Shown here in pieces: positions 33,749 to 56,280 of a DNA stretch of 64,000 bases; the first letter of the stretch is position 1, and each line of letters starts with the position of its first letter. Under the pieces are notes generated by a model. The model ran no database searches. It was not told the DNA's origin and saw only the letters and a list, made by a program, of their open reading frames with translations. The DNA is from Gelidibacter gilvus (GTDB lineage: Bacteria > Bacteroidota > Bacteroidia > Flavobacteriales > Flavobacteriaceae): NCBI RefSeq assembly GCF_004115975.1, contig NZ_SDDZ01000011.1:1-64000 (forward strand). Direction: 5' to 3'. A program made the position numbers and the translations under genes.

Positions 33749-33751
33749 ATC

Positions 33752-34741: not shown

Positions 34742-34804
34742 AAAATTCTTCAGATTTTTCAGTTGTTTCCAAAATGGAAATATCTCAATTTATAAACTCT
34801 AGTT

Positions 34805-36453: not shown

Positions 36454-36460
36454 ATAACTA

Positions 36461-36655
36461 TTATTCTTTATTTGAGATTATCAATTCTTTTACATCTACG
36501 TCTAAAATATTCGCGATGTCCATCAAGGTTTCCAATCGTGGTTGCTGGCGGTTTTGAGCATAAGCGTTAACCATATTATAACTCTTGCCAAGCTTTTCAG
36601 CCAGCCAAGTTTGTTTTATGCCCTTCTGTTCCAATACTTCCTTAATTCGATTCAT
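36461..36655 (-). CDS. Xre-type controller of the restriction operon
   Basis: 64 residues from the ATG at 36655. It is a complete small HTH: IKEVLEQKGIKQTWLAEKLG, SYNMVNAYAQNRQQP, LDVDVKELI. It ends 7 bp before the mod start and resembles controller proteins placed at the front of restriction operons. Confidence 0.8.
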   Translation of the reverse strand: MNRIKEVLEQKGIKQTWLAEKLGKSYNMVNAYAQNRQQPRLETLMDIANILDVDVKELIISNKE

Positions 36656-36868
36656 TTTAGAACTTATTTTTTCAGCTACCAAAATAGTCAAGTTAATTTA
36701 TATATCTCAAAAAATTGTGTAAAAAGTGTGAATGGAGGGTTTTGTTTAGAATATGCAGTTTAGTAAAGAACTGATGTAGGAAACAAAAGTTGAATAGAAA
36801 ATTTGTGAGGATCTTTTAAAAAAAATCATATTTCTAACAATAGCTTATTTCTTATCTTAAAAATGGTT

Positions 36869-40946: not shown

Positions 40947-41348
40947 TTAAAGTTCTTTGGTGGTATTTCTTTTCTCCTCAAAACTGTCCCCTTTCTTTTC
41001 TTCCCTAAATTTCTTCTCTAAAATCAAGGATTTATTTTTGGGCTCTTCTGCTTGAAAAAGCGATTCCAACATGGCCATGGTCGGTTTGGTTTGGGTCTTT
41101 TCAATATCCCGCTGAATGGCAATAATGGCATTCATTCGTTTCAACAAATTAGTCTCAACGGTATTTAAATTAACCGCAATAGTTCTACCTGATGGACCAA
41201 ATTTTTCCTTAGGTGAGATCTCATTATAGAGGAAAAAATCGAGCATCGTAGCCATGGCTTCGGTATGTGATTTAAAGTGCGTTCTTGAAAATTCCTGAAA
41301 ACGTTTGGCGGTATCCCGCTTAATCCTGATAGTGATGAAAGAGTCCAT
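40947..41348 (-). CDS. BfmA/BtgA-family mobilisation protein
   Basis: 133 residues. The N-terminal FITIRIKRDTAKRFQEFSRT resembles a ribbon-helix-helix region, followed by a helical segment (VETNLLKRMNAIIAIQRDIE). This is the BtgA family, a relaxosome accessory protein that binds oriT. First gene of the mob operon, directly beside the candidate oriT. Confidence 0.82.
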   Translation of the reverse strand: MDSFITIRIKRDTAKRFQEFSRTHFKSHTEAMATMLDFFLYNEISPKEKFGPSGRTIAVNLNTVETNLLKRMNAIIAIQRDIEKTQTKPTMAMLESLFQAEEPKNKSLILEKKFREEKKGDSFEEKRNTTKEL

Positions 41349-41365: not shown

Positions 41366-41612
41366 GCATTTGACGTAAATCCATCCCAGTTTACAGGTGG
41401 TTTCGGGGCATTTGACGCAAATTGATGAAATCTAAGAAATTAATACATTTTCAAGTAATTGAAAATCAATGATTTATAAACGAAAAGGAACATGTAACGT
41501 GGCTCTGCCCGTTACCCTCTTGCTATTCCTTTTCGTCCCGCCAAAGCGGGACAAAATTTCATACAATCTGGCCAAAAAGCCAATTGCCTTTTTCGGAATT
41601 TTCAAAATTCCG
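41366..41612. other. Candidate oriT with direct and nested inverted repeats
   Basis: Direct repeats GCATTTGACGTAAAT (41366-41380) and GCATTTGACGCAAAT (41408-41422) are followed by nested inverted repeats. Outer arms CGAAAAGGAA (41481-41490) and TTCCTTTTCG (41526-41535) enclose inner arms GTAACG (41494-41499) and CGTTAC (41510-41515). Next come a hairpin GTCCCGC-CAAA-GCGGGAC (41535-41552) and a near-palindrome CGGAATTTT-C-AAAATTCCG (41594-41612). It lies directly upstream of the btgA-mobB-mobC operon, where oriT is expected. Confidence 0.55.
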
Positions 41613-41787: not shown

Positions 41788-41985
41788 TTAGATGTTGAAT
41801 TTAAAGGTATAAGAATATAGATTTCGTAATGCCTCTTCCTCTGTCGTCGTTTCAAAACAAGTATAATTTTCTCTTACGTACTGGCGAATACTATCACCAA
41901 ATTTTCGTTCCACATCTTTTTTAGAAATTTCTAAAAGTCGGTTTTGAGCTTCTTCGCTCAAGTTTGTAAAATTGAGATATACCAA
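41788..41985 (-). CDS. Small hypothetical protein of conjugative element
   Basis: 65 residues, acidic and soluble, LSEEAQNRLLEISKKDVERK being the clearest helical stretch. It follows the DUF6876-like gene by 11 bp and has a terminator after it, so it is the last gene of the ssb operon. Function unknown. Confidence 0.6.
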   Translation of the reverse strand: MVYLNFTNLSEEAQNRLLEISKKDVERKFGDSIRQYVRENYTCFETTTEEEALRNLYSYTFKFNI

Positions 41986-41996
41986 GGCATGAAATT

Positions 41997-42377
41997 TTAG
42001 TATTCGCTTGGCAACATCAGCGTGCCATTTACAAAAAACAACCGCAGTTCATCCAGTGGAAAATCTGTAGCATGATAGCTGTGTTTTTCTAAAATGTTAT
42101 CGTTGCCATCGGTGTAGATAATTTCAGCTTCGTAACCTGAAAAAGCCTGTTTTTCCTTGGACAGTCTTTTGAAGTCTATGGTTACAAATTCGCTTCGATT
42201 CATCAAACTTTTTGCAATTACAGAGGTGTCCGTAATGAGCCAAAAACAATCTGCTATATTGGCTAGATATTTAAGTCCATCAGTAAAACGTGTTCTTATT
42301 AATGGAATCGAATAGAACATTTCCGTCCCGTGAAAATGTTGCAATCCTTCTTTGATTTCTTTAACTTGTGCTTTCAT
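41997..42377 (-). CDS. DUF6876-like protein
   Basis: 126 residues. The order GLQHFHGTEMFYSIPLIRTR, then GLKYLANIADCFWLITD, and a C-terminal LPLDELRLFFVNGTLMLPSE-like end is the pattern of DUF6876 proteins, common in Bacteroidota mobile elements and of unknown function. It lies downstream of ssb behind a strong hairpin. Confidence 0.7.
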   Translation of the reverse strand: MKAQVKEIKEGLQHFHGTEMFYSIPLIRTRFTDGLKYLANIADCFWLITDTSVIAKSLMNRSEFVTIDFKRLSKEKQAFSGYEAEIIYTDGNDNILEKHSYHATDFPLDELRLFFVNGTLMLPSEY

Positions 42378-42452: not shown

Positions 42453-42797
42453 TTATTGATCATTCTTACTTCCCAACAAAAGAATTTCTCTTGCCTCTAC
42501 TTCCGTTACATAGCGCTGACTGCCGTCATCAGTGGTATAGGTCCGGGTTCTCAACTTTCCACTAACCCCAATTTCCTTACCCTTATCTACATATTTTTCA
42601 ATAATTTCAGCCGTCTTTCCCCAAGCTACTACCGTGTGCCACTCTGTAGCTTGCGTTTTCTCTCCTTTGGCATTCTTGTAATGTTCGTTTGTTGCCAATG
42701 AAAAACGGGCTACTTTCTTACCGCTTTCAAGGTTCGTAATGGTTGGCTCCTGTCCAACATTTCCAATTAACTGTACATGATTTTTTAAAGTGCTCAT
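42453..42797 (-). CDS. ssb: Single-stranded DNA-binding protein
   Basis: 114 residues. OB-fold signature: NHVQLIGNVGQEPTITNLES, KVARFSLATNEHYKN, TEWHTVVAWGKTAEI, IGVSGKLRTRTYTTDDG. It lacks the acidic C-terminal tail of chromosomal SSB (the end is LLLGSKNDQ), as is common for element-encoded copies. Probably coats transferred single-stranded DNA. Confidence 0.92.
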   Translation of the reverse strand: MSTLKNHVQLIGNVGQEPTITNLESGKKVARFSLATNEHYKNAKGEKTQATEWHTVVAWGKTAEIIEKYVDKGKEIGVSGKLRTRTYTTDDGSQRYVTEVEAREILLLGSKNDQ

Positions 42798-42830: not shown

Positions 42831-42989
42831 CTAAACCCCGCCAGAATGAATTCTCGGGCTGGCATTCAGGCAGTTTGCGTTTCTATTTTTCTGAATTGAT
42901 TTACTTATTATATCTTGAGCGTTTTCCTTTTTTGTTTTTTTTGGTGTCGCTTCCTTTTTGATATTTTTGTAAGATTTCATAAGTTTCAT
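42831..42989 (-). CDS. Possible lysine-rich small protein before ssb
   Basis: 52 codons from ATG 42989 (ATG 43007 also possible): MKLMKSYKNIKKEATPKKTK and a polar C-terminus. It ends 33 bp before the ssb start on the same strand. The longer frame to 43118 runs into repeat sequence and is not credible. May be a real small basic protein or a chance frame. Confidence 0.3.
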   Translation of the reverse strand: MKLMKSYKNIKKEATPKKTKKENAQDIISKSIQKNRNANCLNASPRIHSGGV

Positions 42990-43072
42990 TTTAAATTTAC
43001 TTCCCATAGCGCCCTCGCTGTTTCCTTTTTTTGTTGCTGGTACATTTTTAATATTTGGAATTGATGAGGACT

Positions 43073-43262
43073 TATAAAAAAGAGAGAGGTACGAGCCTGG
43101 TTTATGCAGTCCGTTCAAGTTCCAAATGTTGGTATTTTGCTTTCAAAAAAAGGGAGGGACGGCGAGGGTGCGGATGAAAAACTAAAGGCTTATGTGACGT
43201 ATTAAAATGTTGGAAGCGGTGCCAAATTATAAATGGAATTCCGATGTGGCGGACGCTGTTTC
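43073..43262 (+). repeat. Leader of dispersed repeat, copy 1 (direct repeat of 45868-46054)
   Basis: About 190 bp matching 45868-46054 at most positions. Shared words include TTTATGCAGTCC, TTCCAAATGTTGGTATTTT, GAGGGTGCGGATG, AAAGGCTTATGTGA and GGCGGACGCT. It brackets, with the second copy, the block 43263-45867. The 94-codon frame at 43207-43491 starts inside this repeat and is not recognised. Confidence 0.75.
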
Positions 43263-43550
43263 ACACTGTTTAGACAAGGATTTAAAACAATTGATTTTAG
43301 AAATGAGTGTGCAAACCAATATTTTCCCAAAAGACAATGCTGCAATTGACATTTTAAAGGAAGTGAAATTGCTAACAAACTTAATAATAAGGACAATTCC
43401 TATTTTTCCAAATACCTCAAACTACTCGTTGAAAACACTTCAATTAGTATTCGAAAAGAACACAATTAAATACCATACATTTTTCAAATAGACCATTGTT
43501 TAGGTTATTCATTGTATATTTTTGTGACGTAAAATAAAAATAGGCACAAA

Positions 43551-44005
43551 ATGAAAAATATCTTTCTTCTCGGTTTTTTCTGACACTCTATAGTTGCCAA
43601 CCAAAATTGGATGACCATTCAAAAGAATTGAAAAATTAAATTGACACCCTAAAAAGTGAACTATCAGAAAGCTAAACACCGGGATTTGGGGAATTTAAGG
43701 GCAATATTCAAGTGCACCATTCCAAGTTATGGCCTGCGGGCGAAAATAAAAATTGGAAATTGGCAGATTTTGAAATAAACAAAATCAAAGAAGAATTGAA
43801 AGACATACAAAAATATGAAACCAACCGACCAGAAAGTGAAATGACACCAATGATTAATCCTGCATTGGACAGCGTATCCAAGGCTTTACAAAAACAGAAC
43901 TTGGTGCATTTTAAAAGTAGCTTCAATTTTCTCACCAAAACCTGTGATAATTGTCATCGAGAAACAAAACACGAGTTCCAGACATGCACATTTTTAGCAA
44001 TCTAA
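43551..44005 (+). pseudogene. Decayed heme-binding (CxxCH) lipoprotein-like gene
   Basis: ATG 43551 begins a lipoprotein-like signal (MKNIFLLGFF) interrupted by TGA after 10 codons. Other frames continue with stops (SCQPKLDDHSKELKN then a stop). From 43712 the frame is open with HHSKLWPAGENKNWKLADFE and a cytochrome-c-type heme motif C-D-N-C-H near 43946 in LTKTCDNCHRETKHEF. The end (QTCTFLAI) looks truncated. Several stops and frame changes mark it as decayed, although 43712-44005 alone is open. Confidence 0.6.
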
Positions 44006-44027
44006 AGTTCAAAACAAATTAATAATT

Positions 44028-44459
44028 ATGTTTCAAAAAATTCTAAAAACTAACCAATCAAAAACTACCTTTCTCATCCGACTGATGGTGGGCTCCGTTT
44101 TCCTATCTGAAGGCATTCAAAAATTTCTGTTTCCTGCAATTCGGGGAGCAGGACGATTTAAAAAAATAGGACTTCCATCACCAGAATTTCTTGGCACGTT
44201 TGTCGGCACGTTTGAGATTGTTTGCGGTGCATTGATTTTAATTGGCTTACTCACAAGGTTGGCGAGTATTTCCACGCTTGTTATTATGATAGTGGCAATA
44301 GCAACCACAAAATCAGAAGTTTTAGTTAATGATGGATTTTGGGCAATGATGCACGGAAGCCGAACCGATTGGGCAATGTTTATAGGAAGTCTGTTTTTGA
44401 TTATCAAGGGAAGTGGTAAATTTTCAGTGGATTGGTATATAGGAAATAAGAAAAAATGA
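44028..44459 (+). CDS. DoxX-family membrane protein
   Basis: 143 residues, four membrane segments. LIRLMVGSVFLSEGIQKFLF and GTFEIVCGALILIGLLTRLA are typical of DoxX/DUF417-like proteins. Ends four bases into the start of the permease gene (ATGA overlap), so the two are coupled. The physiological role of such DoxX proteins is not defined. Confidence 0.82.
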   Translation: MFQKILKTNQSKTTFLIRLMVGSVFLSEGIQKFLFPAIRGAGRFKKIGLPSPEFLGTFVGTFEIVCGALILIGLLTRLASISTLVIMIVAIATTKSEVLVNDGFWAMMHGSRTDWAMFIGSLFLIIKGSGKFSVDWYIGNKKK

Positions 44460-45721
44460 AAAATTTGGATGATAAAGGACTTTTAAGATCACTTACTTTA
44501 AAAGATGCAGTAGGCGTTGGTTTAGGAGCAATAATCGGTGCGGGTATTTTTGTAGTAACAGGAATTGCGGCTGGAGTTTCGGGTCCTGCCTTTATTGTTG
44601 GTCTTTTAGTCGCAGGAATTATTGCCACTTTTAATGCCTTAAGTTCTGCGCAATTAGCATCCAAATATCCCCATTCGGGCGGAACTTACGAATATGGATA
44701 TATCTTGATAAATCCTGCTTTTGGATTTTCCGCAGGATGGATGTTTCTAGTGAGTAAGCTTGCAGGGGCAGGTTTTGTTGCCCTAGGCTTTGGCGGCTAT
44801 TTCTACCAATTGATGCCGATCGCCTCTCCAATGACATTTTCTGTTTTAGCTGTTATTCTTCTGACAGTAGCCAATTATTTTGGCATTAAGAAAGCGGGGA
44901 ATTTAAATCTTGCGATTGTTACTATAACTTTCCTTTCACTTATATATTTGGCATTTAGTGGTATCCCTGAAGTGAATTTCGAAAACTTCAAACCCTTTGC
45001 TCCATTTGGTATTTCAGGAATTGCAGAAGCCGCTGCACTTTTGTTTTTTGCCTTTACAGGCTATGGAAGAATTGCGACACTTGCCGAAGAAGTAACGGAT
45101 CCCAAGAAAACGATCCCAAAAGTGATTATTATTACCATAGTAACGGCCATACTTCTTTATAGTGTAATTTCTGTGGTAGCTATAGGGGTTGTAGGCACCC
45201 AAAGTATGGCAAGCAGTACTTCTCCTTTGCAAGTTGTTGCAGATGCTTTAAACACTCCTGAAATCAGTAGTATTATAACTATTGGCGCGTCTACTGCCAT
45301 GTTAGGTGTATTGTTGAGTCAAATATTGGGAATTAGCAGAGTGATGTTAGCCATGGGTAGAAGGAATGACTTACCTCCAATTTTTAAAAAGATACACGAA
45401 AAGTATCGGGTTCCACATATTGGAATACTTTTCACAGGTTTAATAATTTTGATACTTACCCTTATAGGTTCGTTCGAATTTATTGTTAGAGCTGCGACTT
45501 TTACTATTCTACTCTACTATAGCATTACAAATATAGCGGCAATCAAACAGCCGAAGAAAGATAGAATGTATGGCAGATTAATTCCAATATTAGGCTTAAT
45601 CGGATGCTTAGCAATGTCCGCTTCCCTGCCTTTAATTGTAGTATTTTCGGGTATTGGATTACTTTTAACAGGGTTCGTGATAAGGTTTTTATTTCATAGA
45701 ATATATGGCAGACAAGAATAA
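44456..45721 (+). CDS. APC-family amino acid permease
   Basis: 421 residues, about 12 membrane helices. The TM1 motif GLGAIIGAGIFV and TM6-region FFAFTGYGRIATLAEEVTDP identify the amino acid-polyamine-organocation superfamily. The length is at the short end of APC transporters. Substrate cannot be read. Coupled to the DoxX-like gene by a 4-bp overlap. Confidence 0.9.
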   Translation: MKNLDDKGLLRSLTLKDAVGVGLGAIIGAGIFVVTGIAAGVSGPAFIVGLLVAGIIATFNALSSAQLASKYPHSGGTYEYGYILINPAFGFSAGWMFLVSKLAGAGFVALGFGGYFYQLMPIASPMTFSVLAVILLTVANYFGIKKAGNLNLAIVTITFLSLIYLAFSGIPEVNFENFKPFAPFGISGIAEAAALLFFAFTGYGRIATLAEEVTDPKKTIPKVIIITIVTAILLYSVISVVAIGVVGTQSMASSTSPLQVVADALNTPEISSIITIGASTAMLGVLLSQILGISRVMLAMGRRNDLPPIFKKIHEKYRVPHIGILFTGLIILILTLIGSFEFIVRAATFTILLYYSITNIAAIKQPKKDRMYGRLIPILGLIGCLAMSASLPLIVVFSGIGLLLTGFVIRFLFHRIYGRQE

Positions 45722-45867
45722 AAAACCTTGTTTTTCCAACCATAACTTTCCAGTTATCCTTGATTTCCCAATAACACCTTTTATTATCTTCGAATTTGGT
45801 TTGTTTTTCTGCTTCATTATAAACTAAAAAAAAACTTAAACAGATTTAATACAAAATTATTGAGGGC

Positions 45868-46054
45868 TTAAAAAAAAGAGCGAGGTATGAGTCTAATTTA
45901 TGCAGTCCTTTCAATTTCCAAATGTTGGTATTTTACTGTCAAAAAAAGGTTGGGCAGTGAGGGTGCGGATGTTGATATAAAGGCTTATGTGAAGTATGGA
46001 AATATAAGGGGCGGCACCAAATTAATAAATGGATTTTTTTTTGGCGGACGCTAT
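45868..46054 (+). repeat. Leader of dispersed repeat, copy 2
   Basis: Imperfect direct copy of 43073-43262, ending at the shared GGCGGACGCT word and running straight into a full repeat unit. The stretch 45722-46599 holds no gene. Confidence 0.75.
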
Positions 46055-46216
46055 TCTCAATTTTTGCTCGGGAATGAAATGTTCCTGCCCGGCGAAGCGG
46101 GAAGGATTAATGGAATGGAAGCTGAAATTGGGGATTGTGTCCAAGACTTTGTTAGGGAAGCTCTTTTCCCGGAATGGAGCTATTTTGCGGAATGGAGCGG
46201 CAATGGGCTGAATGGA
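46043..46216 (+). repeat. Dispersed structured repeat, diverged full unit
   Basis: Begins GCGGACG. It includes CCCGGCGAAGCGGG, GTGTCCAAGACTTT, CCCGGAATGGAGC and ends GGCAATGGGCTGAATGG, following the same order of landmarks as the unit at 55963-56146. Confidence 0.65.
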
Positions 46217-46250
46217 TTATGAAGATGATTTGATCTTTTTCAGCCAGATT

Positions 46251-46365
46251 TAAGCGGACGTGACTTCAAGGTTGAAGATTGGAATGGAATTTGACCGCTT
46301 CCCGACTTTTTTCGGGAGTGAGCGGGCAAGTGAAATGGAAATCGGAGGCTTTGGAGTTACGACAT
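46251..46365 (+). repeat. Dispersed structured repeat, 5' part
   Basis: AAGCGGACG, GACCGCTTCCCGA-CTTTTT-TCGGGAGTGAGCGGGC and AATGGAAATCGGAGGCTTTG are present; the 3' landmarks are missing. The CCGCT/AGCGG and CCCGA/TCGGG pairs form a nested hairpin. Confidence 0.75.
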
Positions 46366-46599
46366 AATTATTACTTTTAAATTGGTGAAGTTGAAAAATT
46401 AAAATAACTTTACCCCTTTTTAACTAATTTTTAAATAAATAAATAAATAATCCTAGAGGCAGAGCCGTCGAGGTATTCAAAGGAAGAAAGTTTTAACATG
46501 TAATGAAAACCATCCGTTTTCAAACATTTTCTAACACCTCCGATGCAGAGCATAGGGGAATTCTAAATATTAAATCTACAACAGACTCCCGCCCATTAT

Positions 46600-49437
46600 A
46601 TGATGACTAAAATATTGATTTTAGAAAGCGCTACTAACGATCTTAATTTTATTTGTTTTGAACTAGATCGTTCTGGTTTCAACTATACAACTATAAACAT
46701 CAAATTAATTGATGAATTTGAAAATGCTGTTCATAACTACAATCCCGACATCATACTATCTGGATATTCTTTAATGAACGATAACGGGCAAGAAGTATTA
46801 AAAATCTGTGATAGATGTTACCCATTAATCCCTTTAATCCTGATTGCAGATCACATAGAAATTGAAAATTGTGTTGCACTCATTAAAAATGGTGTGTCGG
46901 ATATTATATTGAAACAAAACATCGCTTCTCTAGGTCAAAAGATTTCCACAACTTTAAAAACTACTCGCGCGGATACTCTACCTAATCAATGTGAAGAAAA
47001 TCTTAATGATAAATCAATATATCGCAGCTTAATTGAGAATAGTGAAGATGCTATTTTGCTTACGGAAAAAGACGGAAAAATCCTTGAAGCGAATAATTCC
47101 GCCTGCCAAATTTTTAAAATGACAGAAGAGGAGTTTTATATATTTGGAAGATTCAGTCTTGTTGACCATAATGATCCATCTTTATTAGCACTTATAGAAG
47201 AGCGTAATCTTACGGGCGTTGCAAAAGATGAACTTACTTTTAACCGAAAGGATGGCAGTTCTTTTACAGGCGAAATAACTTCAGTAGTATTTAAGGACAT
47301 CTGGGGTCATGAAATGACTTCCATCAAAATTAAAGATTTAACTCAATATAAAAAAGCGGAAAAACAGTTAGCAAAAACAGCGGCAGAATTACAAGAAACC
47401 GTAAATAGCCTGAATAAAATAATGAACGCCTCAATGGATTTAATTTTTTCCGTTGATGCAGACAAAAAAATTGTACAGATAAACTCAGCCTGCAACAGCA
47501 CTACGGGATATGAAACACAGGAATTAGTAGGTAAAAGTTATATTGATTTCATACATAATGAAGATAAAGAAATAATATTTAATGCTGATCAAAATGTTAG
47601 GAATGGCAATCCTATTAAAACATTCGAAGCCAGAGTTATCCATAAAAATGGAACTACTATTTACATTTTACTGAGTGCTCAGTGGGATGAAGATGATAAA
47701 CTGATTTATTGTACAGCTAAGGACATTACCGAGAAAACAAAATTAGAGAAGGCGTATAAAGTAGAAAGGGAAAGATTTTTGGATCTATACAATCTTGCGC
47801 CAGCTTGTATGGGGCTTCTTAAAGGGCCTAACCATATACATGAACTTACAAATTCACTGTATTTAAAATTCATCAATAAAAAAGATGTCATAGGTAAATC
47901 CATACTTGAGGTCATGCCAGAAATGGAGGATCAAGGGATTATAGGCTTGTTGGACTCGGTTTATAATACAGGTGTGCCATTTATAGCAAATGAAATGCTG
48001 ATCCAATTAGATAGTAATAATAACGGATTACTCGTTCAAACCTACATGAATTTTATATATCAGGCGCACAGAAAGTCTGATGGCAAAATTGACGGTATTT
48101 TTGTATTTGCGATAGATGTAACTGAACAGGTATTATCACGTATTAAAATCGAAGAAAGTGAAAAAATGTATCGCCAATTGATAAGTGAACTGCCTGTAGC
48201 CGCCTACTCATGCGATGCAGACGGAAAAATATCATTTTTCAATAAGGCAGCGGCTATTCTTTGGGACACAGAACCGAAAATAGGAGAGGATTCTTTTTGT
48301 GGCTTCTCCAAGATGTTAGATGAGGATGGACAGACCATACCTTTGCACTTATCCCCGATGGCTATTTCTTTAAACGAAGGTAGAATAGTGTCTGGCCGGT
48401 CTGGTACTGTCGAACGCGCAAGTGGAGAAAGACGTTACGTGCTTCCTCATGTTGTTCCTTACATAGATTCATCAGGGAAAGTTACAGGGGCTGTAAATGT
48501 CGTCACAGATATCACTGAAATAAAAGTTGCACAAATTGCATTGGAGCTCCGTAACTCAGAACTCGCATTTCAAAATCAAGAGAAAGAAAAACGAGCCGCC
48601 GAATTAAGTATTGCCAACAAGGAACTTGCTTATCAAAATAAGGAAAAAGAAAATAGAGCCAACGAATTGGTCATTGCCAACCAAGAACTTGCCTTTCAAA
48701 ATGATGAAAAAGAAAAACGAGCAAAAGAATTAATTCTGATTAATATAGAGCTTCATAAAAGCAATAAAGAGTTAGATCGTTTTGTATACAGCATTTCTCA
48801 TGATTTAAGAAGCCCTTTAACTTCCGTACAAGGGCTTGTTTCAATTATTGAAGAGGAGAGTGAAGAACCCAGCACGCTAAAACATGTTGAGATGATCAAG
48901 AATAGTATTAATCGGCTTGATGAATTTGTTAAAAAAATTCTAATTTATTCACGTAACGATCGCACAGATTTAGAATTGGAAATAATACCAGTCAAGAAAA
49001 CCATTTTAAATATTATCGCTTCTCTTCAGAATATGAAGCAGGCAAAAGACATTCATTTTGAAATTGAGGTCCAAGAGTTGTCCCCATTTTGTACTGATAA
49101 ATTACGGTTTAATACGATAGTAGAAAATTTAATTTCTAATGCTATTAAGTATCATAAACCTCGCAGTAGTGATAGGTTCATTAAAGTGAAAGCTGTTGCG
49201 CATAAAGAAATGATGCAATTAGAAATAGTTGATAATGGAATAGGAATTCCGTTAATGTACAAGGAAAAAATATTTGATATGTTTTTTAGAATATCAAGTA
49301 AATCAGAAGGTTCAGGAATCGGCCTATATATAGTAAAAGATACCATCGAAAAACTAGAAGGCTCCATTAAGGTCATTTCGCAAAAACAAGCCGGCACAAC
49401 TTTTGAAATAAATCTTAAAAATTATAAAAAATGTTAG
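46600..49437 (+). CDS. Multi-PAS sensor histidine kinase with degenerate receiver
   Basis: 945 residues, no membrane segment. Residues 1-115 resemble a response-regulator receiver, but the site expected to hold the phospho-acceptor Asp reads DIILSGYSL (G55). Four PAS-like domains follow at about 140-255, 265-385, 395-510 and 520-640. Three tandem 22-residue coiled-coil repeats of the ELAFQNQEKEKRAAELSIAN type fill 650-720. The HisKA box has H734 in SISHDLRSPLTS; the ATPase ends with DNGIGIP and GSGIGLYIVK. It overlaps its response regulator gene by 7 bp. It phosphorylates, presumably, that partner; the signal is unknown. Confidence 0.9.
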   Translation: MMTKILILESATNDLNFICFELDRSGFNYTTINIKLIDEFENAVHNYNPDIILSGYSLMNDNGQEVLKICDRCYPLIPLILIADHIEIENCVALIKNGVSDIILKQNIASLGQKISTTLKTTRADTLPNQCEENLNDKSIYRSLIENSEDAILLTEKDGKILEANNSACQIFKMTEEEFYIFGRFSLVDHNDPSLLALIEERNLTGVAKDELTFNRKDGSSFTGEITSVVFKDIWGHEMTSIKIKDLTQYKKAEKQLAKTAAELQETVNSLNKIMNASMDLIFSVDADKKIVQINSACNSTTGYETQELVGKSYIDFIHNEDKEIIFNADQNVRNGNPIKTFEARVIHKNGTTIYILLSAQWDEDDKLIYCTAKDITEKTKLEKAYKVERERFLDLYNLAPACMGLLKGPNHIHELTNSLYLKFINKKDVIGKSILEVMPEMEDQGIIGLLDSVYNTGVPFIANEMLIQLDSNNNGLLVQTYMNFIYQAHRKSDGKIDGIFVFAIDVTEQVLSRIKIEESEKMYRQLISELPVAAYSCDADGKISFFNKAAAILWDTEPKIGEDSFCGFSKMLDEDGQTIPLHLSPMAISLNEGRIVSGRSGTVERASGERRYVLPHVVPYIDSSGKVTGAVNVVTDITEIKVAQIALELRNSELAFQNQEKEKRAAELSIANKELAYQNKEKENRANELVIANQELAFQNDEKEKRAKELILINIELHKSNKELDRFVYSISHDLRSPLTSVQGLVSIIEEESEEPSTLKHVEMIKNSINRLDEFVKKILIYSRNDRTDLELEIIPVKKTILNIIASLQNMKQAKDIHFEIEVQELSPFCTDKLRFNTIVENLISNAIKYHKPRSSDRFIKVKAVAHKEMMQLEIVDNGIGIPLMYKEKIFDMFFRISSKSEGSGIGLYIVKDTIEKLEGSIKVISQKQAGTTFEINLKNYKKC

Positions 49438-49832
49438 ATCCTAAATCAAAATTTGAAAGAGTCATGCTTATTGACGACAATACTATTGACCTTTATATAA
49501 CGGCTCGACTTATGACTAAATATAATTTCGGAGAGGAAATCGACCAATACTCATCTGCCAAGAAAGCTTTGGAGTTTTTGCAGGAAAAGCAAAACGATTT
49601 TACAAAATGGCCCCAAATAATTTTCTTAGACATATATATGCCAGGAATGTCGGGATTCGAATTTATGGCAGAATATAATAACTTATCATCTCAATTGAAA
49701 AAATTCTGCAAAGTCTACATGATTTCTTCCTCTATTGATGAAAATGATATAAAGCGAGCAAAAAATGATGTAAATGTGGTTGATTTCCAGGTAAAAAGTT
49801 TAACAAAAGAATTTCTAAACAGTATTATATGA
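49431..49832 (+). CDS. Single-domain response regulator
   Basis: 133 residues, receiver only. Acidic pair D15-D16 (MLIDDNTID), phospho-acceptor D67 (IIFLDIYMPGMSG), and K122 in FQVKSLTKE. No output domain, so it acts as a phosphorelay shuttle or by protein contact. The start lies within the kinase gene end (7-bp overlap). Confidence 0.9.
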   Translation: MLDPKSKFERVMLIDDNTIDLYITARLMTKYNFGEEIDQYSSAKKALEFLQEKQNDFTKWPQIIFLDIYMPGMSGFEFMAEYNNLSSQLKKFCKVYMISSSIDENDIKRAKNDVNVVDFQVKSLTKEFLNSII

Positions 49833-50095
49833 TTCTCAAAATTAATTTGACTTATTTTATTAGTAAAAAGATACTCTATTTATCACTAGTCTTAACATAA
49901 AAAAATACGTCTTTCCCCTACCAATACTCCGAACAATTATCAACAAAAGAGCGCTTGCCTTTCCAATTATCATTTTATTTTCCACGCCATCCGAAATTAT
50001 TCAAAATGCTCATACTAGCAAAAATTGGATCAAGTCAAAAAGTCATGACGTAACCAAAGACAAAAGAACTTTGGTGCAAGTATTTCCAGGCTCTC

Positions 50096-50305
50096 AGAGT
50101 CACTATTAGCTATTGCCAATTTATTCCTTCCCGAAGTGCTACTGACCTGTTTTTATCTTAAAAATCATCAGGCAAAAAACGAAGAACTCCATTTTTATTT
50201 TACAGAACAAAACAAGCTTCCTGATAGGAATGGTGGTTCGAAGCTTCATGCCAAAGATTTCTTCTCAGAGGCTACTCAGGATTTTCTCATACGTGGAAAG
50301 CGTTT
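50096..50305 (+). mobile_element. ISAon1-type transposase remnant joined to repeat
   Basis: The frame reads LLAIANLFLPEVLLTCFYLK, then EELHFYFTEQNKLP, then KDFFSEATQDFLIRGKR. This resembles the N-region of ISAon1-family transposases, which read LPE-LxxYFEL ... HLYFEExN ... IQDFPIRGK. Directly after GKR the sequence changes into the 3' part of the dispersed repeat (GCAATGGAACTTTTCGCGG). No start or downstream transposase domain remains. The rest of 49833-50095 holds nothing I recognise. Confidence 0.5.
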
Positions 50306-50357
50306 TGCTCGCAATGGAACTTTTCGCGGAATGGAGGGGAATGGGCTGAGCGGGTTA
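50305..50357 (+). repeat. Dispersed structured repeat, 3' fragment
   Basis: CGCAATGGAACTTTTCGCGG and GGGGAATGGGCTGAGCGG correspond to the 3' landmarks of the unit. It follows the transposase remnant without a gap. Confidence 0.65.
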
Positions 50358-50390
50358 AAAATTAATATTGTTCTTTTTCAGCCAGATTCA

Positions 50391-50573
50391 AGCGGACGAA
50401 ACTTCAATGCTGTAGATTGGAATGGCGTTTGACCGCTTTCCAATTTTTATCGGGAATGAGCGGGCAAGTGGAATGGAAATCGGAAGCTTTGGAGTTGGGT
50501 CCAAGACTTTCCAAGGAAGCGCTTTGCCCGCAATGGAGCTTTTCGCGGAATGAAGGGGAATGGGCTGAGTGGG
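50391..50573 (+). repeat. Dispersed structured repeat, full unit
   Basis: All landmarks in order: AGCGGACGAAACTTCAA, GACCGCTTTCC, TCGGGAATGAGCGGGCAAG, AATCGGAAGCTTTGGAGTTG, GTCCAAGACTTTCC, AAGCGCTTTGCCCG, CTTTTCGCGGAATG, GGGGAATGGGCTGAGTGG. Confidence 0.85.
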
Positions 50574-50608
50574 TTTTTATTACGGATTATTGTTATTTAG
50601 ACGGATCT

Positions 50609-50790
50609 AAGCGGACGAAACTTCAAAGTTGTAGATTGAAATGGAGTTTGACCGCTTCCCGACTTTTTTCGGGAATGAGAGGGCAAGTGAAATGGAAATC
50701 GGAAGCTTTGGGGTTGGGTCCAAGACTTTTTTAATGAAGCGCTTTGTCCGGAATGGAGCTTTTCGCGGAATGTAGGGGAAAGTGCTGAAA
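50609..50790 (+). repeat. Dispersed structured repeat, full unit
   Basis: Starts 36 bp after the previous unit with AAGCGGACGAAACTTCAA and runs to GGGGAAAGTGCTGA. Contains the nested hairpin CCGCT-T-CCCGA-CTTTTT-TCGGG. Confidence 0.85.
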
Positions 50791-50827
50791 GAGATATATT
50801 ATTGTAGCGGATTTTTAGAAGGTTTTA

Positions 50828-50914
50828 AAGCGGACGTAACTTCAAAGATGAAGATGGGAACGACGTTTGACCGCTTCCCGATATTTCTCGGGAATAGGCA
50901 GACAAGTGAAATTG
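50828..50914 (+). repeat. Dispersed structured repeat, 5' part
   Basis: AAGCGGACGTAACTTCAA and GACCGCTTCCCGATATTTCTCGGGAAT are present. The sequence diverges after GACAAGTGAAATTG. Third partial or full unit in tandem at this site. Confidence 0.75.
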
Positions 50915-51045
50915 AACAACCCAAAATAAGAGAAAAAAAAATTGATTTCCTTCTTTCTTCTGTGATGTGATTTGATGTGAACAATAAAACAAAAATTATA
51001 ATTTCTCACGAATCATTACAAATAAAAAAAACTATTTTTAAGCCC

Positions 51046-51053
51046 TATATTTG
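51046..51053 (+). promoter_or_regulatory. Bacteroidota -7 element of the AraC regulator gene
   Basis: TATATTTG matches TAnnTTTG exactly, 16 bp before the ATG at 51070. The -33 region is A-rich without a clear TTTG. Confidence 0.5.
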
Positions 51054-51069
51054 AAGTCAATTTTAAGGA

Positions 51070-52182
51070 ATGAAAGAAGTATATGCACTACCAATTATAG
51101 CAATCGTTTCGTGCGTTATTAGTCTTCTACTTGCGTTTTTTTTACTTTCTGTAAAATCAAATAATAGAATCAGCAACAGACTATTCGCTACCTTTTTAAT
51201 TTTAAGCGCAATAGATTTAAGCGGGTGGTTTCAATACTTATTTTTTTCTGGGCTGTCAAATTTTGGGATGGCAAAAAGTATGTTTTCCTTTCTACAAATG
51301 CCTGTTCTTTACTTCTATGTTTTATCTGTTTGTTATTCAGATTTTAAATTAAAAGCAAAACATTTACTACACGCAATTCCTTTTGTGATTGCTAACTTGG
51401 TGATGATTCCCAGATTTTATGCCGTAAATACTGAGAGTAAATATGCCCTTTTCGAAAATTACAATCGCATTTGGGAAATTATTTATATCCATATTTCCAT
51501 CGAGCTGCAATTCATTATTTATATTACTTTCATCTTCGTTATTCTAAACAGATACAAGAAAATCTATCAGCAAAATTTCTCGGACACAAGTTCAAAAGCA
51601 TTCCTTTGGCTATTTCAATTCACCTTAGCTTCTGCAATAATCCATAGTGTTGTTTTGGTGAAAAATATTCTGAAATATACAGATAGAGGCAAAACCTTCG
51701 ATTCTGTGCAGCTTTTGGTTAGTGTTTTAGCCTTGATTGTAATCTGTTGGTATGTTTTTAAAGCCTTAAAATATCCAGAATTATTTAACGGAGTAGATTC
51801 AAAAACGCAACTTGTTACAACTTCCATCGATAAAAAAACTGTTATAAGATCTGAAGAAATTAATCAACTCACTTCTTATATGGAAACAGAAAAACCTTAT
51901 TTAAATCCGTCATTATCAATCCGGAATTTAGCGCAAGAACTGAATATGAATTCCAGGGATTTATCCATTTTAATTAATCAAAGACTTAATCAGCATTTTT
52001 TTGATTTTGTAAATGAATACCGCATAAAAGAAGCGATGAATATTTTGAAGAATCCGAATAAAAAAGATGTTACCATTTTGGAAATTCTATATGAAGTTGG
52101 ATTTAACTCTAAATCTTCCTTTAACTCTGCCTTTAAAAAACACACCGGAAAAACACCAACCGAGTATAAAAAACTAGCTTAG
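51070..52182 (+). CDS. Membrane-anchored AraC-family regulator
   Basis: 370 residues. Residues 1-225 hold six or seven membrane helices. The cytoplasmic C-terminus (about 265-370) is an AraC double HTH: LNPSLSIRNLAQELNMNSRD and LEILYEVGFNSKSSFNSAFK, ending HTGKTPTEYKK. Such regulators are common beside outer membrane receptors. It is followed, in the same direction, by a TonB-type barrel gene, its probable target. Confidence 0.9.
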   Translation: MKEVYALPIIAIVSCVISLLLAFFLLSVKSNNRISNRLFATFLILSAIDLSGWFQYLFFSGLSNFGMAKSMFSFLQMPVLYFYVLSVCYSDFKLKAKHLLHAIPFVIANLVMIPRFYAVNTESKYALFENYNRIWEIIYIHISIELQFIIYITFIFVILNRYKKIYQQNFSDTSSKAFLWLFQFTLASAIIHSVVLVKNILKYTDRGKTFDSVQLLVSVLALIVICWYVFKALKYPELFNGVDSKTQLVTTSIDKKTVIRSEEINQLTSYMETEKPYLNPSLSIRNLAQELNMNSRDLSILINQRLNQHFFDFVNEYRIKEAMNILKNPNKKDVTILEILYEVGFNSKSSFNSAFKKHTGKTPTEYKKLA

Positions 52183-52220
52183 GGTCAACGCCTTAACGTA
52201 AAGTCGAACGCTTGTAAAAT

Positions 52221-52260
52221 AAAGTCGAACTCATTTGTTGATATAAATGAGTTCGACTTT
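52221..52260. terminator. 16-bp perfect hairpin between regulator and receptor genes
   Basis: AAAGTCGAACTCATTT (52221-52236) pairs perfectly with 52245-52260 across 8 nt. A further direct copy of AAAGTCGAAC lies at 52200-52209. No long U-run follows, so it may be terminator, attenuator or a dimer-binding operator for the AraC protein. Confidence 0.55.
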
Positions 52261-52325
52261 GCGTTTTCGGTCGTGTAAACTGCTTTGCTATCGCACTTTT
52301 GTTTCATCAAACTAAAACACACAAG

Positions 52326-54710
52326 ATGAAAACAAAATTGAAAACACTCGCCTACTTTATTCTACTACTATTTCCAACTATTTTTTATGCGCAAACAATC
52401 ACAGGAAAAGTAATAGACAAAACAGATGCAGTTGCATTTGCAAATGTTACAATTACAAATAGCAACAATGAAATAGTTACAGGGACAACAACTAACGAAA
52501 ATGGTTTCTTTCTCGTAAAAGTAGATTCAGGAAGTTATAAGTTAACAATAAGCTTTATTGGATATACAGGTGTTGAAGAAGCTATTTCCATAGAAAAAGA
52601 TATAGATCTAGGCACAGTTTTGTTACAAGAAGATGCAGAATCTTTAAACGAAGTTGTTCTTAAAGTTGAAAAAAGAATGATAGAACGAAAGATTGATAGA
52701 TTGGTTTTTAATGTGGAACAAAGTATGGCTGCCACGGGAGGAAATGGATTGGATGTTGTAAAAATCACTCCCGGAGTTCATGTTCAAAATGGCAGTATAG
52801 AAATTCTAGGGAAAGGTGTCACTCAAATAATGATCAATGGTAGAATCTCTCCTTTGCAAGGTGAAGAGTTAGCAAGTTTTCTAAGCGGAATCTCGGCAAG
52901 CGATATTCAAAAAATAGAAGTGATTACAAATCCACCAGCAAAATATGAAGCTTCTGGTAATGGAGGCCTAATCAATATCATTCTAAAGAAAGGAATTCAA
53001 GATTCTTGGAAAAACTCAACCACAATTTCTTACAACCAAAACAAATACAATTTTTCAACAATCAGTAATAATTTCTTTTACAATAAAGGAAATCTTTCTT
53101 TTTCTGGAAGTGTAAATGCGACCAAAGGAAGTATTGAAAATGCAGAAGGCATATTAATAGATTATCCCACTAACAATTGGGATATTGATGTAGATTCAGA
53201 AATTGGAAAAGACGAGCTTTCAGGTCGACTTTTAATGGATTATGAACTTACTCCAAAAACAACTTTTGGCTTACAGTATTTAGGAAATGCTACAAAACCT
53301 ACCATAGATGGCACAACAACCTCTATCGTATTCGACAATGACAACAATTTAGAAAAAACACTTGTTAACCAAGGAGATAACATCGTTGATAATAAAAATC
53401 ATAGCTTAAATTTTCATGCGGTGACGCAATTGGATTCAATAGGCAAAAGCTTTTCTGTTGATGCTGATTATTTTATATTCAATTCAGAAAATAGTCGCGA
53501 TTTCTTTACGGAAGAATTCAATAATACTGGCGTTTCTCAAGGAATAAATTCTGCAGCTTTAAATATTGCCAATCAAGAAATAGAGAATTTTAGCTCTAAA
53601 ATTGATATAGATTTCCCGTTGGAAAAAGTTAATCTTTCCTACGGAGTAAAAGCAAGTTTTACGAAGACAAAAAGTGATGTTTTATACTTTGACACGCTTA
53701 CAGGAACGCCTATTTTAGATTTAGACAGATCTAATGAATTTAATTACCAAGAAGATGTTTTAGCTGGGTATATTTCTGGAAACACTAATTTAAGTGAAAA
53801 ATTAAAAATGCAATTTGGTCTGCGTTTGGAAGACACTAAAACTAGAGGAATTAATGCTGAAATGAATAAAGAAACAATCAACAAATACACAAAACTCTTT
53901 CCAACGCTTTATTTTTCATATGCATTAAATGAAAAGAATGATTTTGGATTTTCTTACGGAAGACGAATTAACAGACCCAATTTCAGAAGTCTTAATCCGT
54001 TTCGGTTTTATATAAATTCAAATAGCTATAGTGTTGGAAATCCATTTTTACAGCCATCATTTTCAGATAATTTCGAGCTTTCCCATTCGTATAAAAAGAA
54101 CTTAACCTCAAAAGTATTTTTAAGTGTTACCACAGATGGTTCTGGTACCGTTTTCACTTCCGATGCAGAAAACCAAACGCAAATAATTACCAGAGAAAAT
54201 TATTATAAACAATACAATTACGGATTAACAGAAAGCTTTTCGTTCAATAAGCTCGCTTGGTTTAAAAGTGAAAACAGCTTTAATCTTTTAGGATACTACA
54301 CAACATTTACTAAGGATTTTGGTGCTACCCCAAAAAACGGACTTCAAGTTTACGTAACATCGAACAACACATTTTCATTGAGTGAACAAACAAAATTACA
54401 GGTGAATTCGTATTATAGTTCTCAGCACAACCGAGGTTTATTTAGTGTTGGTGAAATGTTTGATTTATCTTTTGGGCTTCAACACAGCTTTAAAAATAAC
54501 CTGAAAATGTCCTTATTATTTAGTGATGTCTTTAATACAGCAAGTCTAAAAGATTATGTGTCTACAATTAACGGAATTGAGCAAATTTACAGACAAAATG
54601 AAAGTTCAAGAAATGTTAGAATTTCACTTTCTTATGATTTTGGAAACAAAAAGGTAAACGTAAAAAACAGAAAATTTGGAAATGATGAAGAACAAAAGAG
54701 AAGTAATTAA
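52326..54710 (+). CDS. TonB-dependent receptor-like outer membrane beta-barrel protein
   Basis: 794 residues from ATG 52326. Signal peptide ends in IFYAQ (residue 23). A carboxypeptidase-regulatory-like domain covers about 24-100 (ITGKVIDKTDAVAFANVTIT). A plug-like region covers about 115-220 (DVVKITPGVHVQNGSIEILG, VMINGR-type text reading IMINGRISPL). The rest is an OMP_b-brl_3-type barrel with RRINRPNFRSLNPF. No SusD partner. The family often lies beside sensor-regulator genes; substrate unknown. Confidence 0.88.
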   Translation: MKTKLKTLAYFILLLFPTIFYAQTITGKVIDKTDAVAFANVTITNSNNEIVTGTTTNENGFFLVKVDSGSYKLTISFIGYTGVEEAISIEKDIDLGTVLLQEDAESLNEVVLKVEKRMIERKIDRLVFNVEQSMAATGGNGLDVVKITPGVHVQNGSIEILGKGVTQIMINGRISPLQGEELASFLSGISASDIQKIEVITNPPAKYEASGNGGLINIILKKGIQDSWKNSTTISYNQNKYNFSTISNNFFYNKGNLSFSGSVNATKGSIENAEGILIDYPTNNWDIDVDSEIGKDELSGRLLMDYELTPKTTFGLQYLGNATKPTIDGTTTSIVFDNDNNLEKTLVNQGDNIVDNKNHSLNFHAVTQLDSIGKSFSVDADYFIFNSENSRDFFTEEFNNTGVSQGINSAALNIANQEIENFSSKIDIDFPLEKVNLSYGVKASFTKTKSDVLYFDTLTGTPILDLDRSNEFNYQEDVLAGYISGNTNLSEKLKMQFGLRLEDTKTRGINAEMNKETINKYTKLFPTLYFSYALNEKNDFGFSYGRRINRPNFRSLNPFRFYINSNSYSVGNPFLQPSFSDNFELSHSYKKNLTSKVFLSVTTDGSGTVFTSDAENQTQIITRENYYKQYNYGLTESFSFNKLAWFKSENSFNLLGYYTTFTKDFGATPKNGLQVYVTSNNTFSLSEQTKLQVNSYYSSQHNRGLFSVGEMFDLSFGLQHSFKNNLKMSLLFSDVFNTASLKDYVSTINGIEQIYRQNESSRNVRISLSYDFGNKKVNVKNRKFGNDEEQKRSN

Positions 54711-54904
54711 GGAACTTGGCTTCTTGAAAGAAACAACTGATTTTAACTCAAGCCCTGAAATAGGAAAGCCAAATTTAGTCGAATAATTTGACTCTCATAA
54801 AACAACTAAATGGCATCAAGTTGATGGTTCCGTCATAAAATGACCGAATGCAACCCCGACCACATACGGTAAATCAGAATCTTTGCAGTTGTGTCCACGA
54901 TATT

Positions 54905-54966
54905 CAAGTGAAGCTCTTTTATCGGAATGACGCTTTTAGCGGAATGCAGGGGAAAGTGCTGGACGA
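54905..54966 (+). repeat. Dispersed structured repeat, 3' fragment
   Basis: GTGAAGCTC, ATCGGAATG, TTTTAGCGGAATGCAGGGG and AAAGTGCTG match the 3' end of the unit. The stretch 54711-55002 has no gene. Confidence 0.55.
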
Positions 54967-55002
54967 GAAATAAGAACTATATTTTGTTCTTGGCAGGATT
55001 TA

Positions 55003-55210
55003 AAGCGGACGAAACTTCAAAGTTGTAGAATAAAATGCTTGTGCTGAGCTAAGCCGAAGTAGAGTTTGACCGCTTCCCGACTGTTTTCGGGAGTGAGCGG
55101 GCAAGTGAAATGGAAATCGGAAGCTTTGGACTTGGGTTGAAGACTTTTTAGTGAAGGGCTTTGCCCGTAGTGGAGCTTTTCGCGGAATGGACTGGCAATG
55201 GGCTGAGTGA
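55003..55210 (+). repeat. Dispersed structured repeat, full unit with small insertion
   Basis: All landmarks from AAGCGGACGAAACTTCAA to GGCAATGGGCTGAGTGA. A roughly 25-bp insertion (CTTGTGCTGAGCTAAGCCGA) lies between the first two landmarks, which makes this copy longer. Confidence 0.8.
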
Positions 55211-55258
55211 TATATCTGCTTATGTTCCAACTCAGATTAAGGGTTATTATGTACTTAC

Positions 55259-55300
55259 CCTCTTTTTGAGATCCTCTTTTTGAGATCCTCTTTTTGAGAT
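55259..55300. repeat. Tandem repeat, three copies of 14 bp
   Basis: CCTCTTTTTGAGAT is repeated three times without mismatch, followed by a partial fourth copy (CCTCTCTTTAT). Confidence 0.9.
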
Positions 55301-55329
55301 CCTCTCTTTATATTTAATGAAATAAAAGT

Positions 55330-55360
55330 AGTCATCTCACTTTCGGTTAATGAGATGACT
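55330..55360 (-). terminator. Intrinsic terminator of the H1-like gene
   Basis: AGTCATCTCA (55330-55339) and TGAGATGACT (55351-55360) form a perfect 10-bp stem with an 11-nt loop. On the minus strand it is followed by a T-rich run. Located 7 bp after the stop of the gene at 55368-55544. Confidence 0.75.
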
Positions 55361-55367
55361 ATTTTGT

Positions 55368-55544
55368 TTATTTTTTGGAATCAGCAATCGAGACTTTACG
55401 GAATTCTTTTAATGATTTTTCCAAGGCTAATGACAGTTTTCTTGCCCTTGTTCCTGCAGCTTTGTTTCCACTTTCTAATTGCATTTTAGCATCACTTTCA
55501 AATGACTCAAAAGTGTTTTTCATGTTTTCAATAAGTTCTTTCAT
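55368..55544 (-). CDS. Histone H1-like (Hc1-type) small protein
   Basis: 58 residues from the ATG at 55544: MKELIENMKNTFESFESDAK, then a middle reading LESGNKAAGTRARKLSLALE and a lysine-rich end. The NKAAGxRARK motif and size match the H1-like chromatin proteins common in Bacteroidota. A clean terminator follows. It lies between units of the dispersed repeat. Confidence 0.85.
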   Translation of the reverse strand: MKELIENMKNTFESFESDAKMQLESGNKAAGTRARKLSLALEKSLKEFRKVSIADSKK

Positions 55545-55747
55545 AAGATTTAAATTTTATTTAAAGACGAAAATATAGTTATTCATTGTAAACACACCTA
55601 TCATTCACATAAAAATACGACTACAAGTCGCTACTTTAAAGGTTTCCTTTATACTTTTCTAACCTTTCTCGGAAAATAATATTAACTGATGGCCGAAGTT
55701 TCGCTTAGCCTTTGGACTACTTAAACGAATTCTTAGTAGGATTAAAT

Positions 55748-55918
55748 TCAGAGGTAACTTCAAAGAGGAAAATGAGAACGACGTTGGACTGCTTCCTGAT
55801 CTTCACGGGAATGAAAAGACAAGAGGGATGAAATCATATACTTTAGAGTTTGGTCTAAGACTTTTTAATGAAGCGCTTTGCCCGGAAAGGAGCTTTTCGC
55901 GAAATGCAGGGAAATGTG
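55748..55918 (+). repeat. Dispersed structured repeat, diverged unit
   Basis: AGGTAACTTCAAAG, ACGGGAATGA, TTTGGTCTAAGACTTTTTAATG, AAGCGCTTTGCCCGGAA and GAGCTTTTCGCG are recognisable; the first hairpin is partly lost. Confidence 0.65.
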
Positions 55919-55962
55919 CTTCGCGTGTTAGGACAACGGATTGTTCTCGTTTAGCCGGGTTT

Positions 55963-56146
55963 AGGCGGACGAAACTTCAAAGTTGTAGATTGAAATGGAG
56001 TTTGACCGCTTCCCGACTTTTTTCGGGAATGAGTGGGCAAGTGGAATGGAAATCGGAAGCTTTGGAGTTGGGTCCAAGACTTTCCAAGGAAGCGCTTTGC
56101 CCGGAATGGAGCTTTTCGCGGAATGGAGTGACAATGGGCTGAGTGG
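55963..56146 (+). repeat. Dispersed structured repeat, best full unit
   Basis: Carries all landmarks: GGCGGACGAAACTTCAA, GACCGCTTCCCGA-CTTTTT-TCGGGAATGAGTGGGC, AATCGGAAGCTTTGGAG, GTCCAAGACTTTCC, AAGCGCTTTGCCCGGAATGG, CTTTTCGCGGAATGG, CAATGGGCTGAGTGG. It makes a useful reference copy of about 184 bp. Confidence 0.88.
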
Positions 56147-56280
56147 TATTCGTACTTAAATCCTATAAATAACAAGTATATTCCCCTCTCAAAATTTTAT
56201 CCATATTATTTCCTTTGTTAAGTATCGTAATATCAGAGAAGATACCTGGGTTCAATATAGACACATACAATTATTATCGA

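Follow-up and report, generated by a model that had tools for sequence, protein, structure and literature searches.

A strand-specific two-hairpin repeat with a nearly fixed place upstream of the MobB gene in Flavobacteriaceae: a possible leading-region element

The window analysed here, a stretch of 64,000 nt from Gelidibacter gilvus (contig NZ_SDDZ01000011.1, positions 1 to 64,000), contains a dispersed repeat whose complete unit, of ~188 nt, is made of two hairpins of ~115 nt and ~70 nt. The unit is a conserved structure with a pronounced asymmetry between its strands, and it recurs in one gene neighbourhood, with a nearly fixed place and polarity relative to the gene of the MobB relaxase (DUF5712). 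We put the chances at about even that it is a leading-region element of flavobacterial MobB conjugative or mobilizable elements, acting like Frpo/ssi promoters or single-strand origins. If this is true, the element can serve to point out leading regions in these genomes, and with them candidate genes for establishment or anti-defence. The question at stake is how genes are expressed, or how the complementary strand is started, in Bacteroidota conjugative elements that are still single-stranded; the nearly fixed place and strand of the element, which 85 of the 299 genomes sampled from the host's family contain, make this question open to deletion and inversion tests. In the open-access literature, no paper describing the element was found by title and start of abstract; nothing was found on Frpo in flavobacteria or on DUF5712, and no paper was found on expression or complementary-strand synthesis in Bacteroidota conjugative elements while they are single-stranded. 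The string 'Bacteroid' is absent from the main text of the Nature 2024 paper on leading regions (PMC11541004).

Structure, place and distribution of the repeat unit

As listed in Table 1, a covariance model search of the window gave 10 matches, all on the + strand (E from 5e-50 to 5e-7), and these, together with the nhmmer bounds of the partial units, matched the ten positions, all on the + strand, of the original prediction made from the bare sequence. The units and fragments are confined to 46.0-56.2 kb. The predicted size of ~190 bp is corrected to ~188 nt, and neighbouring units of tandem arrays are ~33 nt apart (copy spacing of 219). The nested hairpin (CCGCT/AGCGG around CCCGA/TCGGG) that had been placed near the start of each complete unit is present, but it is only the tip of the ~115-nt hairpin of the B-type units; the A-type units, which usually come first in an array, have another tip, and every unit has the second hairpin of ~70 nt as well. 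Beyond the window, the same contig carries more copies at 67.4-67.7 and 95.3-95.7 kb as well as weaker unit fragments near 68.2, 72.2 and 105.1 kb, all of them on the + strand; a second contig (C39) of the same genome carries others.

The pairing is conserved through strong compensatory change. After 7 of 55 full units had been left out by length, 48 remained for training; columns with non-canonical or doubtful pairs were excluded from the covariance model. In the alignment of these 48 units, two-sided changes were found in 33 of the 53 pairs and 86.0% of the cells were paired, a value which fell to 42-50% when the pairing partner was shifted by one column; none of 500 shuffles reached any of the five measures. 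Another 58 loci contributed 81 matches, of which 78 were distinct; in their alignment, which was fitted to the model and has one unit (L095, same place as L024) in common with the training set, 42 of the 53 pairs showed two-sided changes. In each hairpin one position avoids Watson-Crick pairing: among the 81 matches it was T.T (66), G.T (14) or G.G (1) in hairpin 1, and T.T (57), G.T (13) or G.G (11) in hairpin 2. This keto-keto position was kept in 48 of the training units for hairpin 1 and in 47 for hairpin 2, the exception being A.T. The helices also contain conserved purine internal loops, and GRAATG motifs, of which 56 of the 81 units have four or more, are opposed across an internal loop in the folds. 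Short palindromes were seen inserted at hairpin tips or in an internal loop (L056:8838-9027, L055:2399-2586 and about 55037-55061 in the window), looking as if REP-like elements (repetitive extragenic palindromes) had landed there.

The family was surveyed with the 48-unit covariance model, under strict filters and with at most 8 candidates scored per genome. The 85 positive genomes fall in 74 of 236 genera; MobB (PF18976) is present in 83 of the 299 genomes. In a sample of the phylum there was a match in 10 of 296 genomes, 8 of the 10 belonging to the host's family. A contig labelled Oscillospiraceae also gave one pattern match (locus L170). The idea of a structured family, which was to fall if the stems lacked compensatory changes or if the copies went back to one local duplication, is thus borne out on both counts.

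Among the 150 units listed, 118 have a listed MobB gene within 20 kb. In 117 of the 118 cases the unit lies upstream of MobB on the strand opposite to it, the distance being 2.2-2.8 kb in 77 cases; all 30 units listed at 3.5-15 kb upstream share the same strand. Conversely, a listed unit lies no more than 8 kb upstream at 76 of 129 MobB loci. From the other 53, three at contig ends were left out and the 50 examined directly yielded 11 more matches (two of them weak, E of 9e-5 and 2e-3), all upstream and with the same polarity, so that 87 of 126 MobB loci have a unit in total.

Gene neighbourhood, leader and strand asymmetry

The neighbourhood was compared over 71 oriented loci, i.e. 58 of a set of 73 (one per genome) plus 13 earlier ones, which had been chosen for MobB with a nearby unit and of which the window is a special case. 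The gene order is nearly constant, with a usual layout of MobB, MobA, a gap with a hairpin resembling an origin of transfer (oriT), a 65-aa protein, DUF6876, the single-stranded DNA-binding protein (SSB), a leader and the unit. MobA was found at all 71 loci and the other genes at 25 to 68 of them (Table 1); SSB is mostly between MobA and the unit. In the window MobB and MobA each pass the cut-offs of their models, which places it among the MobB (NF041495) conjugative or mobilizable elements, and the coupling protein has a weak NCBIfam MobC match (3e-47, 161 bits versus a cut-off of 900). Beside the mob genes, at 31100-38083, are a type III restriction-modification pair and matches to the PADLOC candidates PDC-S05 and PDC-S54.

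Table 1. Genes, leaders and repeat units in the window (cmsearch start: start of the covariance model match)
Feature	Position	Strand	cmsearch start	Basis
Coupling protein, VirD4/TraG type	38313..39893	-		Pfam T4SS-DNA_transf 1.5e-13, TrwB_AAD_bind 4.5e-15
MobB relaxase (DUF5712)	39904..40935	-		PF18976 1.3e-112; NF041495 MobB_relaxase 405.7 bits, cut-off 200
MobA, BfmA/BtgA family mobilization protein	40947..41348	-		NF041200 84.5 bits, cut-off 24
Candidate oriT, GTAACG..CGTTAC then conserved CCTCTTGCTATTCC	41494..41529	+		conserved in the gap upstream of MobA
65-aa protein of the ssb operon	41788..41985	-		blastp, 56/71 loci, E cut-off 0.01
DUF6876 protein	41997..42377	-		PF21781 1.9e-31; 42/71 loci
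SSB	42453..42797	-		PF00436 4.2e-34; 68/71 loci
Small lysine-rich open reading frame (MGSK...), real start probably internal	42831..43118	-		similar frames by blastp, 25/71 loci, E cut-off 0.01
Leader, one long imperfect hairpin, 134 paired positions including mismatches	42935..43233	+		strand-neutral scoring
Unit remnant, start only, TGGCGGACGCTG...	43247..43262	+		read from sequence; repeat family D7
Leader remnant, 5' arm lost	45855..46041	+		repeat families D7/D8
Unit, A-type	46042..46219	+	46042	covariance model, 144.6 bits
Unit, 3' side truncated	46252..46361	+	46252	nhmmer; covariance model, 85.8 bits
Unit fragment, 3' hairpin	50295..50356	+	50266	nhmmer + covariance model
Unit, B-type	50390..50576	+	50390	covariance model, 190.8 bits
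Unit, B-type	50609..50796	+	50609	covariance model, 197.1 bits
Unit fragment, 5' part	50828..50916	+	50849	nhmmer + covariance model
Unit fragment, 3' part	54871..54966	+	54842	nhmmer + covariance model
Unit, B-type, short insertion	55003..55213	+	55029	nhmmer; covariance model, 121.2 bits
58-aa open reading frame between two arrays	55368..55544	-		read from sequence
Unit	55746..55930	+	55746	covariance model, 129.4 bits
Unit, B-type	55963..56150	+	55963	covariance model, 191.6 bits

The gap upstream of MobA, analysed at 63 of the 71 loci, is 389-471 bp long in 48 of them. It contains a conserved inverted repeat followed by CCTCTTGCTATTCC on the + strand, although some loci differ or are without it; 49 of the 63 have an exact CCTCTTGCTA with enough preceding sequence, corresponding to 37 distinct copies. 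In relaxase systems the cleaved strand usually carries the inverted repeat on the 5' side of the nick. Since the oriT-like repeat lies 5' of the conserved motif on the + strand, this strand, which is also that of the units, is probably the transferred one. If so, the order of entry would be the 65-aa protein gene, DUF6876, ssb, leader, unit and then the cargo genes. DUF6876 has a confidently predicted fold (pLDDT, the per-residue model confidence, of 93.6), for which a comparison with the Protein Data Bank gave no match at E <= 0.001; we regard it as a candidate establishment or anti-defence protein. The model of the 65-aa protein is of moderate confidence (pLDDT of 79.9). Neither of these two proteins nor the small lysine-rich frame had a match in PADLOC.

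The leader between the ssb operon and the unit is an imperfect hairpin of ~300 nt. That of the window had a strand-neutral score of 120, versus a mean of 38.6 and a maximum of 84 for 200 shuffles; it is whole, and of the unit after it there is only the start. The two leaders of ~190 bp in the original prediction (at 43059 and 45855) do exist, as the 3' part of this longer hairpin. Leaders were analysed at 65 of the 71 loci, 30 of which have a second type (type ii) made of several hairpins. For type i, 30 of the 33 leaders listed were aligned with that of the window, and 17 of the 58 predicted pairs keep pairing via two-sided changes in at least one of the 31 sequences. The 5' arm of the leader is overlapped by the possible small lysine-rich frame. 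At L045:9168-10863 an AbiEi/AbiEii pair lies beside a unit array, on the strand opposite to it; this array has a third form of leader.

The mismatches within the paired arms tell the strands apart. By strand-neutral scoring of the + strand arms, the ratio of G.T to A.C was 382:33 for the type-i leader (199:114 expected from composition), 85:19 for type ii (68:50 expected), 401:60 for hairpin 1 (295:163 expected) and 83:6 for hairpin 2 (68:39 expected). As related loci were counted as if they were independent, p-values are not meaningful; all four elements agree. A strand-neutral count was used because the RNAalifold energy model favours G.U, and indeed, when RNAalifold was given the reverse complement, G.U again exceeded A.C (33:9 in type A and 7:3 in type B). 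With RNA parameters, the mean minimum free energy was -60 kcal/mol on the + strand versus -42 on the - strand for type A, and -55 versus -38 kcal/mol for type B. The large excess of G.T over A.C means that the + strand is under selection when single and is the one that functions in single-stranded form, be it DNA or RNA.

Proposed role and alternatives

Under the leading-region reading, the leader hairpin of ~300 nt and the unit next to it would fold as the transferred strand enters the recipient, on the very strand that serves as template for the ssb operon. Once folded, they might recruit RNA polymerase or primase, and the outcome would be early expression of ssb, DUF6876 and the 65-aa protein gene, priming of the complementary strand, or both. 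In Gelidibacter the unit would have been duplicated in tandem, and then again among cargo genes with the same polarity. A more ambitious version, which we put forward tentatively and consider somewhat less probable than its negation, is that of a new Bacteroidota class of single-strand elements of the leading region: a ~300-nt hairpin plus a repeatable two-hairpin unit, with a conserved keto-keto mismatch and a GGAATG internal-loop motif per hairpin, would switch on ssb and putative establishment genes (those of DUF6876 and the 65-aa protein) from incoming single-stranded DNA without sigma70-like boxes, and cargo modules would accumulate between copies of the same polarity.

Several observations weigh against the leading-region reading. 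The hairpins yielded no recognisable promoter box; the scan covered the Bacteroidota consensus (TAnnTTTG) and had no power: in 65 ssb-upstream regions it gave 1 sense hit (14.65 expected from shuffles) and 7 antisense ones, and it is uninformative because control genes show no difference between sense (34/241) and antisense (34/241). The abundant G.U-type pairs are no less compatible with RNA than with DNA. The asymmetry was weaker (474:119) in the model-fitted alignment of the 81 matches, and the oriT hairpin, with neither G.T nor A.C mismatches in its 37 distinct copies, carries no strand information. The units of the cargo region flank + strand genes, which are beyond the reach of a leftward promoter. 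Among the units listed, 32 of 150 have no listed MobB within 20 kb, and one of those near MobB is downstream of it on the same strand. Finally, 39 of the 126 MobB loci are without a detected unit, from which it follows that the element is not indispensable.

The main and serious rival, although we think it rather unlikely, is a + strand non-coding RNA, leader included, whose transcription would point away from the ssb operon; it could act, for instance, as an antisense regulator of that operon or as a multi-hairpin protein-binding RNA. G.U-rich helices, conserved purine internal loops, the lower RNA-parameter energies of the + strand and the strand asymmetry itself would all fit such a molecule. 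However, an independent RNA gene need not keep its polarity, yet all the listed units situated 3.5-15 kb upstream of MobB do; no promoter was recognised for it by the powerless scan described above; and a location next to ssb within a conjugative element suits single-stranded DNA better.

That the repeat is a non-autonomous mobile element, as had been suggested at the outset, or a recombination (attachment) site, is improbable. Dispersed direct copies do flank gene modules in the window: a truncated leader with an array at 45.9-46.4 kb is followed by other arrays among cargo genes (by reading, a histidine kinase with a response regulator, an AraC-type regulator and an outer-membrane receptor), and a 58-aa frame, which we tentatively take to be histone-H1-like, is bracketed by arrays in three places (the window, L045 and L054). 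Insertion independent of context is not what was observed, since 117 of the 118 listed units near MobB and the 11 found in addition all share place and strand; the unit belongs to a conjugative or mobilizable element, in which its position is nearly fixed. At L059 and L055 a recombinase gene adjoins a tRNA gene, the array being about 4 kb away (the L059 recombinase matches tyrosine-recombinase models below their cut-offs). At L046 one AT-rich 11-mer is all that the stretch beyond the array has in common with the tmRNA-gene region; with the tRNA and tmRNA genes away from the arrays, an attachment site was rejected. Local duplication and decay of the leading region, with homologous recombination between direct copies, could have produced the arrangement of the window, and a role as recombination substrate may simply result from the presence of several such copies.

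Double-stranded DNA palindromes bound by a dimeric regulator would account for long inverted repeats upstream of an operon, but this seems very unlikely: a double-stranded site would give no G.T/A.C asymmetry, and such a regulator offers no reason for the T.T, G.T or G.G position found in each hairpin in 81 of 81 matches. A structured 5' leader (riboswitch or attenuator) of the ssb-operon mRNA, although directly upstream of ssb at most loci, is scarcely credible and is contradicted by the strand asymmetry, as that mRNA has the sequence of the - strand whereas mismatches and fold energies place structural selection on the + strand.

Comparison with known systems

The original prediction held that the repeats fit neither the CRISPR (clustered regularly interspaced short palindromic repeats), insertion sequence nor known REP layouts, in agreement with a search of 42-58 kb of the window against Rfam 15, which returned 5 matches, all with E >= 0.55 and far below gathering scores. 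REP and CRISPR share with the present family palindromic units repeated in tandem with short linkers of similar length; here the units are much longer, have two domains, are strand-specific and occur in one gene neighbourhood. A CRISPR-like reading of the ~33-nt linkers was set aside, some of them resembling each other at their 3' ends (by reading).

With the BtgA/BtgB systems of Bacteroides plasmids, the window shares a MobA that passes the cut-off of the BfmA/BtgA model, and 53 of the 124 plasmid records matching its MobB are from Bacteroides; all 124 are less than 60% identical to it, and a search of plasmid DNA with the array at 50.3-50.9 kb gave no match.

ICEBs1, an integrative and conjugative element, has an orientation-specific single-strand origin, sso1, with stem-loops downstream of oriT (PMC4595007). 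Orientation-specific stem-loops downstream of oriT, here a candidate one, are common to both; sso1 is described with three of them and belongs to Bacillus, and the comparison is one of descriptions.

A further parallel is with Frpo/ssi of the F plasmid. According to PMC9849209, F expresses its leading genes while the DNA is single-stranded, by means of two stem-loop promoters, Frpo1 and Frpo2, which are 92% alike and ~5 kb apart, Frpo2 being upstream of ssb; in two other elements, too, a Frpo-like sequence is described just upstream of SSB (PMC11541004). The differences are those of another phylum, of a two-hairpin unit plus a ~300-nt leader versus one stem-loop, and of -10/-35 boxes, which were not recognised here; again, the comparison is one of descriptions. 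What is shared is a stable, strand-specific stem-loop in noncoding DNA, upstream of an operon and beside ssb, with nearby copies of the same polarity. Its location upstream of ssb on the + strand is observed, and the oriT hairpin suggests that this is the transferred strand. To conclude, it is because the element matches Frpo and the ICEBs1 origin in place, strand and kind of structure that a role in early transcription or priming is proposed.

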